Of a stretch of 64,000 nucleotides of DNA, positions 4,536-48,996 are shown piece after piece. The stretch's first letter is position 1. Each line of letters opens with the position of its first letter. The stretch is from Actinomycetota bacterium (GTDB lineage Bacteria; Actinomycetota; Geothermincolia; Geothermincolales; RBG-13-55-18), in assembly GCA_013178005.1 (NCBI GenBank), contig JABLXL010000007.1, forward strand, positions 1 to 64,000. The letters are read 5' to 3'. The notes under the pieces are model-generated. The model had not been told where the DNA came from. It did not search any database and saw only the letters and a program-made list of their open reading frames with translations. Made by a program: the position numbers and the translations under genes.

Positions 4536-5088
4536 GTGGAAACCACCAAGGTATTTCAGATTGCTGGGAGTGCAGGACGGGGAAACGCCGTAAGGTCGTT
4601 TGCTCAAGCAAATAAAAGTCGGCCAAGCGGACTTCCTCCCTCAACCCTTATCTGCAAAAGAGCGGAACGGCGATAAGGCGCTTGGAAGCAGCATCATCAA
4701 AGTTGAAATATAAATGTATACTAAATATTTATTGTGTTATGGCTTAAGGCGCTTATTTCTCGGATAAATAGATCTGTTGGTTTTCGTTTGAACCGCGTGT
4801 CCCCCGACTTATATCGATTTTTTAATGCCAGACTTCGTCTCCACCTATCACAAGCATCATGCACACGACACGCAGCAATGCCGATTAAGCATAAGGATTT
4901 CCCTCTCCGGGCGCGTCGGCCAGACAAAAGGGACCTGGCATGGATTCTCCTTTTCGGAATCGCACTGGGTTGCGTGCCGCCCTCTCAACGGCTTATCGAA
5001 AACTGGTAAACGCACATGCCCGATGAAACGCCGAAAAGGGCGGGAAACGACCACAGAATAAAGTTAAAGTTTATATTTATAAATCGAC
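4536..5088. other. AT-rich gene-poor stretch
   Basis: From about 4690 the base composition becomes clearly AT-rich compared with its surroundings, with runs such as ataaatgtatactaaat. The short open frames here (4721-5061, both strands) have no recognisable protein features. The region forms the 3' flank of the group II intron and may be older acquired DNA or decayed sequence. No RNA gene or promoter could be assigned. Confidence 0.5.
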
Positions 5089-6558
5089 ATAGGTAGGCCC
5101 TCGCGGGCTGTCCCTGTCACACCACCGTGCGTACGGGTCCGTACACGGCGGTTCGGCAAGGTTAAGCGGAGCAGCGGGCCTCCAAGGTGATGAGTCCGAG
5201 TTCGGAGAGAAGGCATTCGGGAAGGCGAAGCTTAACGCGGGGCTGCGGCTGATGCGCCAGGGGCCATGGACGCTGCCGGCGGTCTTGGCCGCAAGGCCCC
5301 TGCTGATATCCCTGGCCCTGAGTTCCGCGTATCGTCTCTTGCCCCGCTTGAGCTGCTTCCAGATGAAGCACCGCAGTCTGCGCCTGATCCAGGAGTCGAG
5401 GTCGCGGAGGACCGACGGGGTCTGGCAGAAGCCGAAGTAGCCTATCCAGCCCCGCAGGTAGGTATTAAGGTCGGCCACCACCCGCTCCAGGGGTACCCCC
5501 CGGGTCCGGCGGGTGATCTCCTTTATCCGCCGGCGCAGGCGTTTGCGGGCCTTGGGCGATATGCTCCGCTTGGTCTTCTCCCTCCCGACGATGCGGAAGG
5601 AGAGAAAGTCCCGCTCGTGCGCCGGGGCCACCGCGCTCTTATCCCCGTTCACCCGGAGCTTGAGTCTCTTTGCGAGGAAGTGGGTGATTCCCTCCATGAC
5701 TCTCCTGCCCGCCCGCTCCGATGCCACGTAGATGTTGCAGTCATCGGCATAGCGGACGAAGGCGTGTCCCCTCCTCTCCAGCTCGCGGTCCAGGTCATCC
5801 AGGTAGATGTTGGAGAGCAGCGGGGAGAGGGGTCCTCCCTGCGGGGTGCCCATCTCGGGCGGGGATACGAGCCCTCCCTCCATCACCCCGGCCTTGAGGT
5901 AGGCCCGGATGAGTTTCAGGAGCACCTTGTCGTCTATCCTGCGGGCCACCCTGGCCATGAGCGCGTCGTGGCAGACGTTGTCGAAGAAGCGCTCGATGTC
6001 CAGGTCCACCACCCAGCTCTTCCCCTCTTCCACATAGGACTGGGCCTTGGCTACAGCCTGGTGGGCCGAGCGGTGAGGCCGGAAGCCGTAGCTCCCCTCC
6101 GAGAGGTGGGGGTCGAATACGGGGGTTAGGACTTGCAGGATGGCCTGCTGGATGAGGCGGTCGGCCACGGTGGGGATGCCTAGGTACCTATGGCCTCCGT
6201 CCGGCTTGGGTATGCCTACCCGCCTCACCGGCTGGGGCCGGTAGGTGCCTGTGAGCAGCTCCTCCCTTATCTCCTGCCAGCTCTGGCTGAGGAAGAGGGG
6301 CAGCTCGGCGGTGGTCATCCCATCCACCCCTGGGGCTCCCGCGTTCTCCATGACCTTCTTCAGTGCCTTCTTCATGTTCTCCGGGCTTACCACCACCTCC
6401 ATGAGTCCCGTTGCCTTTGCCGGGCGTTCGGGGCTGCGCTCCGCCGCGGGCGGTTCGTTCCCTTCCAGCGAGGGGTTGCGGGCTTCACCCTCCCCCGTCT
6501 CGCCGAAGGCCAGTTGTCCCTGGTCTTTCCGCCGCTTGCCGTCCCGCGAGTCACGCAT
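5077..6558 (-). CDS. ltrA: Group II intron reverse transcriptase/maturase, C-terminus frameshifted
   Basis: Intron-encoded protein of about 493 residues. It has RT0-RT7 fingers/palm blocks, the [15 protein letters not shown] block, [14 protein letters not shown], the catalytic FVRYADD motif and the maturase X domain (RRTRGV through LRGWIGYFG). It splices and reverse-transcribes its host intron. The ATG at 6558 is preferred over the GTG at 6570. After [11 protein letters not shown] the frame looks shifted: the +1 frame reads [16 protein letters not shown] and stops at 5162, which resembles the normal maturase C-terminus. The annotated frame instead reads on through domain V and past the intron end. 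A one-base deletion near 5205-5212 is the simplest reading. Confidence 0.9.
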
Positions 6559-6959
6559 CCTACTTGCCACTCCTTGCCGTTCGGCCCTTCGGTGGACGAA
6601 AAGTCCTCCTACTATGGCCTCTGCTGACTCCTGCGCCGCGGTCAGGGTCCCTCACGGTTCCCTCAGTCCCCTTGGGGGGACACGGCGCAGGCCTCCCGGG
6701 GTAAGACCGGCCGCCTTCCCCGCACACCCGCCGGATTTACGCCCGTGGCCCTTGACGGATATGGACTTCGCGATCTCTTGCTCGCTCGTCCGGCCACGCT
6801 CGCCTCGTATCCGGTTCCTGTTCGTCGGGTCGCGTTTTGCTCCTGCGCTTCCTTCAGACTCAACCTCGCGATTGAGCCCTTGCGCTTCGCTAGTCCTTCA
6901 CCTCCGTCAGGTTGGACAGGGGACTTTCACCCCCGAGCTGCCGGCCATGCCCGGCACAC
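5089..6959 (-). mobile_element. Group II intron, class C type, complete
   Basis: On the minus strand the intron begins at 6959 with GTGTGCCGGG, a typical group II 5' end. It ends near 5089 after ...CCTACCTAT; the 3' boundary is estimated to a few bases. A 34-nt domain V hairpin lies at 5121-5154 (GAACCGCCGTG...CACGGTGGT), with domain VI right after it. The 5' exon is a terminator-like hairpin at 6967-6985, and class C introns characteristically insert behind Rho-independent terminators. Total length about 1.87 kb with the RT inside domain IV. It appears structurally complete; mobility depends on the frameshifted maturase. Confidence 0.88.
5121..5154 (-). ncRNA. Group II intron domain V
   Basis: A 34-nt hairpin on the minus strand (GAACCGCCGTGTACGG then CCGTACGCACGGTGGT) with the length and bulged-stem shape of domain V, the catalytic core of the ribozyme. 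It sits just after the expected end of the maturase frame, as in other class C introns. Confidence 0.85.
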
Positions 6960-11175: not shown

Positions 11176-11566
11176 TGAGAGGGAGCCGGCCTGTAAGCCG
11201 GATTCTGTACCCGGACGAAGCCGGGCGGTGGTCATCCATCTAGGACCGCCGTTGCCGGCGGCCTCCAGCGGCCTACCCGAGCCTCTAGCGCCGCGGGCCA
11301 CGGCATCGGCTCCTATTTGGCCTTGCTCCGGGAGGGGTTTACCAAGCCGGCCCCGTCACCGGGACCGCTGGTGGGCTCTTACCCCACCTTTTCACCCTTG
11401 CCGGCCGGCACCGCATGCGTTGTAGCGCCGGCAGGCGGTTTCCCTTTCTGTGGCACTTTCCGTCGGGTCACCCCGCCTGGGCGTTACCCAGCTCCCCGCC
11501 CTGTGGAGTCCGGACTTTCCTCGCGCGCGCCCTGAAGCGCGCCCGCGACCACCCGGCCGACTCCCT
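11176..11566 (-). ncRNA. rnpB: RNase P RNA, bacterial type A
   Basis: On the minus strand this stretch has the conserved core of bacterial RNase P RNA. The P4-forming GAGGAAAGTCCGGACTCCAC comes early. AAAGTGCCACAGAAAG and GTGAAAAGGTGGGGTAAGAG follow. CCGCTGGAG, TAGATGGATGACCACC and ACAGAATCCGGCTTAC come near the 3' end. The last of these pairs back with the 5' region to complete P4. It cleaves 5' leaders from tRNA precursors with RnpA. Ends are set by the outer helix (GAGTCGGCCGG at the 5' end, GGCCGGCTCCC at the 3' end) and are good to a few bases. Confidence 0.95.
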
Positions 11567-46595: not shown

Positions 46596-46646
46596 GGAGC
46601 GGCGCTAAGCCGCATGGGGTATGGAACCCGGGTCGTATCTTGACCC

Positions 46647-46725
46647 GGGTCGTGTCTTGACTTTTTTGTTCCGGGAAGACTTTGGGTGTTTGTTTTCCGC
46701 CCCGGCGGAATGAAAAAGTAAAGAG
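46647..46725. repeat. Palindromic element L1 (right end truncated)
   Basis: First copy of the left cluster. It starts with the arm GGGTCGTGTCTTGACTTTTT and loses the last 7-9 bases of the right arm after AAAAAGTAAAG. A partial arm also lies just before it at 46628-46642. Confidence 0.85.
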
Positions 46726-46743
46726 AGGATCGGGTATGAACCC

Positions 46744-46829
46744 GGGTCGTGTCTTGACTTTTTTGTTCCGGGAAGACTTTGGGTGTTTGTTTTCCGCCCC
46801 GGCGGAATGAAAAAGTAAAGACACGACCC
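46744..46829. repeat. Palindromic element L2 (86 bp, complete)
   Basis: Arms of 20 bases, GGGTCGTGTCTTGACTTTTT and the inverse of GGGTCGTGTCTTTACTTTTT, with one mismatch. Inner TTCCG/CGGAA extends the stem. The apex has a CCGCC/GGCGG mini-hairpin. Confidence 0.9.
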
Positions 46830-46866
46830 CACGCCCGGGTATGCGACCGGGTCGTGGTATGCGACC

Positions 46867-46952
46867 GGGTCGTATCTTGACTTTTTTGTTCCGGGAAGAC
46901 TTTGGATATATGGCTTGCGCTGCGGCGGAATGAAAAAGTAAAGACACGACCC
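46867..46952. repeat. Palindromic element L3 (86 bp, variant apex)
   Basis: Same arms with one change (GTATCTT). The apex differs from L2 around 46913-46921, weakening the CCGCC/GGCGG pairing. Confidence 0.9.
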
Positions 46953-47037
46953 CACGTTCACATATAATTGAACGTGATCGAACGGCATGTTCGGCAAAAC
47001 GACCGGTTGGGATTCCGCGCTCATCAGGAGGTGCAAG

Positions 47038-48081
47038 ATGACGGTTTCCGGCAACGGAAAGACGCTTTCGGAGGTCATGCGCGATCTCGAGGCGATCCCC
47101 TTCCGCCCGCGGCCCCTGGGCGGGAGGGCCAGCACATGCCTTGGTTTCTCCGCCGATGCCCTGCCCATGTTGCTCGACACCCGCCGCGCCACCGCCTGCA
47201 AACTCTACCCCTATCCGCACTCCTTCCGCTCCGTCACCTTCACCTCGCTGGACGGCACCCCGCTGGCGGGCAAGCTGGCCCTTCACGGCGACGGCACACC
47301 GCGGCCGGGCCTCGTCTTCTGCCACGGAGTCTTCGGGAGCAAGAACCAGAATTACATCCGCAGCGTGGCCGTAAAGGCGCACCGGGAATGGGGCTATAAC
47401 GTCCTGGCCCTGGACACGCGCGGTTTCGGGGAGAGCCGCTACCTTAGCGACGCCATGGTAACCGGAGGCTGGAAGGAGGGCGAGGATGTCATCGCCGCCG
47501 CCCGCTTCCTCGGCGGTTTCGCCCAGGTCACCACGGTGGGGGTCTCCGGCTACAGTATGGGCGCTGCGGCCGCCATGATCGCCGCGGGCATGGACGGGGG
47601 GGAGCATATAACCGGAGGGGTGCTGGCATGGAACGGCACCTCCGATACCCGCGGCATGATAGAGTTCATCTCCAGGCCGCCCATGCCATGGCAGCCCTTC
47701 TTCATCGCCTACCCCCTTTTCAAGGCATGCCTGGTCCTCAAGCTCTCCGGATGGAAGGGATACGAGCACATAAGGGATTTTACCTCCATGTTCTCCGCCG
47801 CCTGCAGAGATTATTACGGCGTTGACGAAGACGAAGCCTACCGCAAGGCTTCACCGGGAAGCTATGTGCATGGCATCCGCATACCCACCGTGCACATCCA
47901 CGCCCAGGACGACCCCATCGTTCCGGTTCGTGAGGCGGAGATGAACAGCGACGCCGCACGGGACAACCCGCATTTCCGCGTCTGGATACTGCCGCGCGGA
48001 GGTCATTGCGCCTTCACGGCCGTGGACAGGGCCTGGTACGAGGGAGTGCTGCGCGGTTTTTTCTCCGCCTGGGCCTCCTGA
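47038..48081 (+). CDS. alpha/beta hydrolase flanked by palindromic repeat clusters
   Basis: A 347-residue hydrolase of the YheT-like group (large alpha/beta hydrolases). The oxyanion motif is CHGVFGSKNQNY, the strand-4 loop DTRGFGES, the nucleophile elbow GYSMGA (Ser at about 181) and the catalytic His in RGGHCAF near the end, with Asp in AQDDPIVP. Probably an esterase of the cytoplasm. Start at the ATG at 47038 behind AGGAGGTG. Matching clusters of three 86-bp palindromes lie on both sides, within 86 bases upstream and starting 8 bases after the stop. Confidence 0.88.
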   Translation: MTVSGNGKTLSEVMRDLEAIPFRPRPLGGRASTCLGFSADALPMLLDTRRATACKLYPYPHSFRSVTFTSLDGTPLAGKLALHGDGTPRPGLVFCHGVFGSKNQNYIRSVAVKAHREWGYNVLALDTRGFGESRYLSDAMVTGGWKEGEDVIAAARFLGGFAQVTTVGVSGYSMGAAAAMIAAGMDGGEHITGGVLAWNGTSDTRGMIEFISRPPMPWQPFFIAYPLFKACLVLKLSGWKGYEHIRDFTSMFSAACRDYYGVDEDEAYRKASPGSYVHGIRIPTVHIHAQDDPIVPVREAEMNSDAARDNPHFRVWILPRGGHCAFTAVDRAWYEGVLRGFFSAWAS

Positions 48082-48088
48082 TGAACCC

Positions 48089-48165
48089 GGGTCGTGTCTT
48101 GACTTTTTTGTTCCGAGACCACGAAGGATGTTTGTTTTCCGCCCCGGCGGAATGAAAAAGTAAAG
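48089..48165. repeat. Palindromic element R1 (right end truncated)
   Basis: Counterpart of L1, truncated at the same place (AAAAAGTAAAG); the apex reads GAGACCACGAAGGATG instead of GGGAAGACTTTGGGTG. Confidence 0.85.
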
Positions 48166-48185
48166 GTACATCCGGGTATGAACCC

Positions 48186-48271
48186 GGGTCGTGTCTTGAC
48201 TTTTTTGTTCCGGGATGAGGTTGGGTGTTTGTCTTCCGCCCCGGCGGAATGAAAAAGTAAAGACACGACCC
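48186..48271. repeat. Palindromic element R2 (86 bp, complete)
   Basis: Counterpart of L2 with identical arms and a slightly changed apex (GGGATGAGGTTGGGTG). Confidence 0.9.
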
Positions 48272-48326
48272 CACGCCCGGGTACGACCCCACGCCCGGGT
48301 ATGCGACCGGGTCGTGGTATGCGACC

Positions 48327-48412
48327 GGGTCGTGTCTTGACTTTTTTGTTCCGAGACCACGAAGGATATTTGTCTTCCGCCCCGGCGGAATGAAAAAGTA
48401 AAGACACGACCC
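48327..48412. repeat. Palindromic element R3 (86 bp, complete)
   Basis: Counterpart of L3 with perfect consensus arms. The linker before it holds an extra 18 bases relative to the left cluster. Confidence 0.9.
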
Positions 48413-48507: not shown

Positions 48508-48996
48508 ATGTCCAGGGAGAGCAAGGTGCTGAAGGTTGGTGACAGGGCTCCGGAGTTCAGGCTTCCGGATGCCGCTACGGGCGAGGAGGTTGCCCTTTCC
48601 GACTTACTGGACCGTCCCTTGATGATCTACTTCGGCAGGGGCACCTGGTGACCGCACTGCCGCGAGTATATGGGTCATATACAGGACATCCTGCCGGAAC
48701 TGGAAAAACGCGGCGCGCGTGCGGTGGTCATCCTTGCCGAAAAGTTGGAACGTATCCGGGAATACCTCAGGAAAAAGCCTTTTCCCTTCCCCGTGCTCTC
48801 CGACGCGAGGCGCACGGTGGTCAAGGAATACGGCGTCTACGTGCGGGTCAATTTTGAGTCAGTGCACATCGCGCGCCCCGCAAACTTCGTGCTGGACAGC
48901 GGGGGAATTATAAGATACATCTTCATCGCGAGTATCCAGACGGAGTACCCACCCGACGAGGAAATACTGGCGGCCATCGACGAGGCCGCAGGGTAA
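48508..48996 (+). CDS. Peroxiredoxin-like selenoprotein (in-frame TGA read as selenocysteine)
   Basis: A 162-residue AhpC/TSA-type protein with ATG at 48508 behind cacggaggtgag. The frame is open from ATG to TAA except for one TGA at 48649-48651 (codon 48). The surrounding sequence reads IYFGRGTW-U-PHCREYM. Relatives in this family have a catalytic Cys in the matching RGxWCPxC motif, so the TGA stands exactly at the peroxidatic position and leaves the second Cys of a UxxC pair. Downstream codons continue the thioredoxin fold (VVILAEKLERIREYL, FVLDSGGIIRYI). A SECIS-like hairpin follows at 48666. It would reduce peroxides. The alternative is a recent nonsense mutation. Confidence 0.82.
48666..48682 (+). 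promoter_or_regulatory. Bacterial SECIS-like hairpin
   Basis: GTATATG-GGT-CATATAC forms a perfect 7-bp stem whose loop starts with G. The loop begins 21 bases after the TGA, inside the usual bacterial SECIS window. Confidence 0.65.

Follow-up and report, generated by a model that had tools for sequence, protein, structure and literature searches.

Y1 transposase genes flanked by TIRs that start with GGGGWSAS have been described as TIRYTs, and some of their families form dimers or clusters (Di Nocera et al. 2013, PMC3733652). TIRYTs were judged in that work to be probably less productive, and Y1 transposases of this type have previously been thought to generate fewer repeats than RAYTs. Most TIRYTs were assigned to TnpAY1 subclass 2.1, whose proteins carry an HTH at the C-terminus; REP-like repeats were not found near the genes of this subclass (Quentin et al. 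2018, PMC6006769). In a full-text literature search, no other paper used the terms TIRYT or TIRtron. The REPINs and BIMEs of RAYTs were described by Bertels and Rainey 2011 (PMC3116915) and Nunvar et al. 2010 (PMC2817692). For the IS200/IS605 family, a replication-related orientation bias is known (PMC6006769).

The locus compared here with these systems lies in a window of 64,000 nucleotides, the whole stretch of DNA that was analysed, in the genome of an Actinomycetota bacterium (3.61 Mb in 98 contigs, assembly 97% complete). The first-pass annotation had proposed six palindromic elements of 86 bp in two clusters. These were recovered at 46647-46952 (cluster L) and 48089-48412 (cluster R), where all six elements are arranged head-to-tail in the same orientation (Table 1). 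The left-arm core (15 nt, up to three mismatches) matched the window 14 times, compared with 0.75 matches expected from shuffled sequences, and the right-arm core 12 times, compared with 0.03. Chance is therefore no explanation for the six elements. The proposed order of one right-truncated copy, one full copy, a linker and a further full copy was found in both clusters, which carry the same linker, GGGTCGTGGTATGCGACC; in cluster L this linker is probably the remnant of an arm. One-arm relics similar to that preceding cluster L also precede other clusters of the genome. The two clusters are indeed direct repeats (89% identity across 231 nt, spacing 1442 nt). However, the apex of L1 equals that of L2 and the apex of R1 resembles that of R3 (94%), whereas the copies most similar to L3 and R2 are found in other parts of the genome. 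The clusters are thus related, but did not simply arise by duplication of one block.

Table 1. Position of the repeat elements and of the enclosed gene in the window.
Feature	Position	Strand	Description	Basis
One-arm relic GGGTCGTATCTTGACCC	46630-46646	+	just upstream of cluster L	direct reading
Element L1	46647-46732	+	right arm lost after AAAG ending ~46724	BLAST match 46647-46724
Element L2	46744-46829	+	full 86 bp	
Linker GGGTCGTGGTATGCGACC, cluster L	46849-46866	+		direct reading
Element L3	46867-46952	+	full 86 bp	
Alpha/beta hydrolase gene	46987-48081	+	between the clusters	Pfam Abhydrolase_1, 43.4 bits, above cut-off
Element R1	48089-48174	+	right arm lost after AAAG ending ~48165	
Element R2	48186-48271	+	full 86 bp	
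Linker GGGTCGTGGTATGCGACC, cluster R	48309-48326	+		direct reading
Element R3	48327-48412	+	full 86 bp	

Other features of the window were also recorded. A peroxiredoxin-like gene (48508-48996, plus strand) has an in-frame TGA at 48649-48651 within the motif GTWUPHC, which probably encodes selenocysteine. The orthologue in the same-genus genome G001 has a TGA at the same place, and the host genome contains selB (380 bits, above cut-off). On the minus strand, group II intron domains (RF02001, RF01998) were matched at 6584-6875, adjoining an open reading frame of 497 amino acids (5077-6570), and a bacterial RNase P class A RNA was found at 11178-11564 (311.6 bits).

The arms and their pairing were analysed in 43 distinct full copies taken from the host genome. 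Each arm of the 86-bp hairpin measures 27 bp, and not 20 bases as had been read before, while the conserved mismatch noted in the arms was confirmed: pair 13-74 is G.A in 31 of the 43 copies. Pairs 21-66 (T.G in all 43) and 22-65 (G.T in 39) form an almost invariant tandem T.G/G.T wobble. Pair 8-79 varies in a compensatory manner, with A-T in 18 copies and G-C in another 18. These counts reveal a paired-arm constraint, under which both the stem and its mismatches are kept. In 42 of the 43 copies, the strand shown is the one with the more stable fold, with RNA and DNA parameters alike, because a G.T pair is tolerated on one strand and becomes C.A on the other. The consensus foot reads GGGTCGT, and the GT[AG]G tetranucleotide is absent from it. 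The apices vary, and no consistent stem-loop pairing and no conserved loop were seen in them among the 86-bp copies.

The elements belong to a large family. A search for the arm 20-mer with up to two mismatches yielded 276 sites in the host genome, so the arms are not confined to this locus; the reversed pattern, serving as control, gave none. In the stretches examined, copies within about 4 mismatches of the arm were aligned, and 69 paired elements in 32 clusters were found, 66 of them 85-87 bp in length. Single-arm copies are dispersed in the genome as well. A cluster holds one to eight elements, always in uniform orientation. None of the 32 clusters has elements inside genes predicted by a simple codon-usage gene caller; 17 lie between tandem, 6 between convergent and 3 between divergent genes, and 6 at contig ends. 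Elements often follow closely on a stop codon, and the one at C1:92837 starts right at one. Copies of one cluster had more similar apices (identity 0.89) than copies of different clusters (0.72; 0 of 2000 permutations), which suggests that clusters grow locally. Contigs C22, C42, C65, C72 and C93 end inside or beside element clusters, and the repeats therefore probably broke the assembly.

A transposase partner outside the window had been suspected for a MITE- or REP-like family, and a gene whose TIR matches the element arms was indeed found. The host genome has two Y1_Tnp genes, on contigs C61 and C45, both flanked by inverted repeats. The TIR of the C61 gene reads GGG[T/C]CGTATCTTCACTTTTTCCTCGCTTTGCTT, and five copies of the outer 20-mer, matching at 18-20 of 20 positions, surround the gene in inverted orientation between the sides. 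Two of them lie to one side, and two and a further one on the flanks, with 19-20 outer nucleotides that match the element arms. The outer 20-mer of the element arm is identical to this TIR except for position 13, and in some copies C replaces T at position 4. Intermediates are also present. The one-arm copies at C1:144120, C10:20066 and C2:51064 have the exact GGGTCGTATCTTGACTTTTT of the element and continue with the full interior of the C61 TIR, CCTCGCTTTGCTT, and the hybrids at C16:7851 and C72:8777 combine one arm of the element type with one of the TIR type. The elements thus show features expected of MITEs moved in trans, as they share their ends with a transposase gene of the host and have no capacity to encode a protein. 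However, the arm interior of the 86-bp elements (TTGTTCCG/CATTCCG) differs from that of the C61 TIR (CCTCGCTTTGC), and for this reason the real partner could be a second transposase that was lost or is missing from the assembly (97% complete, 98 contigs).

The C61 protein scored above the Y1_Tnp cut-off and has the motifs NHYH and YIVLNP; a C-terminal HTH_23 domain at 254-287 reached 22.3 bits, just under the cut-off of 24.6. Judged by these motifs, it bears the marks of an HUH/Y1 transposase of the TIRYT kind, TnpAY1 subclass 2.1. Its TIR starts with GGGGTCGT or GGGGCCGT, in agreement with six or five of the eight positions of GGGGWSAS. The closest protein is the Y1 transposase on contig C16 of the same-genus genome G002 (66% identity), whose TIRs read GGGGTCAG, also GGGGTCGT, and include GGGGTCGTATCTTC.

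Coupling between TIR and transposase was also apparent across related genomes. Pairs of inverted 18-mers starting with GGGGWS[AG] spanned the gene at 13 of 31 Y1 loci, but at none of 28 control loci around other genes. In 15 loci, TIR similarity and Y1 similarity were correlated (Mantel r 0.75, 0 of 5000 permutations), a co-divergence to which common descent of Y1 gene and TIR contributes. The TIR families are moreover species-specific. The TIR of the second resident Y1 gene, on C45 (GGGGTCAAGGCTGGCCATCGG), has 53 copies in the host genome and none in 19 relatives. One of the Y1 genes of G002 has a TIR that supplies the commonest 18-mers across 814 kb of that genome; this TIR occurs there 89 times and was absent from the 19 other genomes searched. 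Genomes G001 and G007, whose Y1 proteins are 81% identical, have a TIR in common that is carried by the G007 Y1 gene and occurs 61 times in G007 and 6 times in G001; it has 10 copies in G004, in whose 78% complete assembly no Y1 gene was found. In these comparisons, a TIR is abundant mainly where the matching Y1 gene resides. The C45 gene (L054, C45:27000-34000) encodes a Bac_DnaA_C-like tail, and upstream of it two direct repeats of 97 nt (L054:947-1043 and 1147-1243, 98% identical) lie 200 nt apart. On C34, the cluster of eight elements has a C45-type TIR copy directly beside it. In G049, which belongs to another class of the same phylum, four copies of GGGGTCAGGTCTTTACTTTTT were seen at L102 and further places, together with a Y1 gene.

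The element arms themselves were absent from both same-genus genomes, G001 and G002. A scan of 84,980 species genomes with exact 18-mers returned only 31 single chance matches and no repeats. In relatives from other genera, pairs with similar ends occur occasionally, with a spacing of 86 bp in G006 and 158 bp in G012. A comparison of sites in related genomes had been suggested before, and the element proved absent from the orthologous regions of four clusters, including cluster R, in G002. A clean, base-precise empty site did not emerge, as the four aligned intergenic regions of G002 are too diverged for the target to be read; C1:92837 came nearest.

The orientation of the clusters is random with respect to transcription and follows the replication strand. 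Relative to tandem flanking genes, 8 clusters point in the same direction and 9 in the opposite one. With respect to GC skew, 22 clusters are oriented against it and 5 with it (p 0.0015), or 13 to 2 when counted by contig (p 0.007), in one test on a draft genome. Skew was computed over ~60 kb per contig where available, with elements masked, from third-codon positions with the mean taken of the two gene strands, which removes gene-strand effects. Gene-strand bias alone gave no signal (8:8). Four short contigs that were left out of the count agree by raw skew, and most exceptions, as noted post hoc, are copies with diverged arms or lie on mixed contigs. Two families of single TIRs in G002 showed no replication polarity (13:14 and 14:14), although these occur in both orientations and so test something different.

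This polarity points to single-stranded DNA rather than RNA, and favours events at the replication fork over an RNA function. A family of structured RNAs, or of terminator or mRNA-stabilising hairpins acting after transcription, had been considered for the elements. Such a role would agree with a hairpin that is near-perfect on one strand by virtue of its G.T wobbles, with the compensatory pair 8-79 and with the intergenic placement, often just past stop codons. Nevertheless, we regard it as improbable in view of the orientation data, the absence of the elements from both same-genus genomes, the variable apices without a conserved loop and an Rfam scan that gave no match near the elements. An equally improbable account is that of passive repeats, which would spread by replication slippage, gene conversion and recombination in the absence of a transposase. 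The higher apex identity within clusters and the uniform orientation fit this account, but it covers the growth of clusters and leaves the 32 dispersed sites unexplained, as well as the match to the TIR of a Y1 gene in the host genome and the parallel TIR families in relatives.

The clusters were also thought to form a composite mobile unit that jointly carries the hydrolase gene, given that direct-repeat clusters bracket a single gene. This is contradicted by synteny. The hydrolase orthologues of G001 and G002 (88% and 86% protein identity) have the same peroxiredoxin gene immediately downstream, and no cluster lies between the two genes, from which it follows that the hydrolase is no part of the element and predates the arrival of the clusters. 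In addition, 30 further clusters are independent of the hydrolase gene, and the nearest relatives of L3 and R2 lie elsewhere in the genome. A composite transposon was thus rejected as extremely unlikely. The spacer between hydrolase and peroxiredoxin in G002 contains copies of that genome's own GGGGTCG-type repeat, indicating that the spacer was used independently.

With two inverted TIRs ~46 nt apart in a total of 86 bp, the elements have a MITE- or REPIN-like structure. We consider it quite probable that they are non-autonomous TIR dimers of this kind, with the C61 Y1 enzyme as the likely actor in trans; in all probability they are passengers with no coding role, which this transposase copies or moves. 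The enzyme would recognise the outer ~20 nt of the element in trans, and would cut the ends and rejoin them in single-stranded form at the replication fork. The family may be mobile to the present day. Single insertions would seed new intergenic sites and would then be multiplied locally into head-to-tail clusters, either by tandem duplication or by repeated insertion.

The polarity could stem either from strand-specific insertion or from loss of copies that place the stabler hairpin on the lagging-strand template. Somewhat short of an even chance, in our estimate, is the more specific reading that the elements are asymmetric hairpins of the TIRYT (subclass 2.1) type, in which fixed mismatches lead to unequal folding of the two strands and the replication fork orients insertion or survival. 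If the leading strand is G-rich, as this reading assumes, the weaker, mismatched hairpin strand would lie on the lagging-strand template. Should it be true, subclass 2.1 enzymes would be tied to single-strand transposition at the fork. The replication-strand polarity provides a testable mechanistic statement.

Among known systems, IS200/IS605 elements (IS608, ISDra2) have the HUH/Y1 chemistry in common with the proposed trans-acting enzyme, whereas the elements described here carry no gene inside, and subterminal hairpins and guide sequences were not demonstrated for them. REPINs and BIMEs likewise combine a single hairpin with inverted arms, high copy number, intergenic placement and a cognate Y1 gene. 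In contrast to these, our elements have no GTAG or GT[AG]G foot, and the repeat is the TIR of the transposase, not a REP with a hairpin of its own. The likeness to TnpAY1 subclass 2.1 lies in the motifs NH[YF]H and Y[IV]xLNP and in the C-terminal HTH_23 or Bac_DnaA_C-like domain, yet a dispersed repeat family belongs to each of the two subclass 2.1-like genes of the host. To the TIRYTs, or TIRtrons, our system corresponds in having a Y1 gene flanked by long TIRs, which in TIRYTs start with GGGG[T/A], and in the dispersed copies with many dimers and clusters. It differs in a C61 TIR start that departs from strict GGGGWSAS, in a high copy number and in asymmetric dimers stacked head-to-tail. Within one genus, each species has a separate TIR family that corresponds to the Y1 gene of that species; copy numbers range from tens to hundreds, and the enzymes diverge in step with their end sequences, which would explain a prominent class of intergenic repeats. 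The element family is an abundant addition to the TIRYT kind, to which it contributes stable mismatches and a polarity relative to replication.
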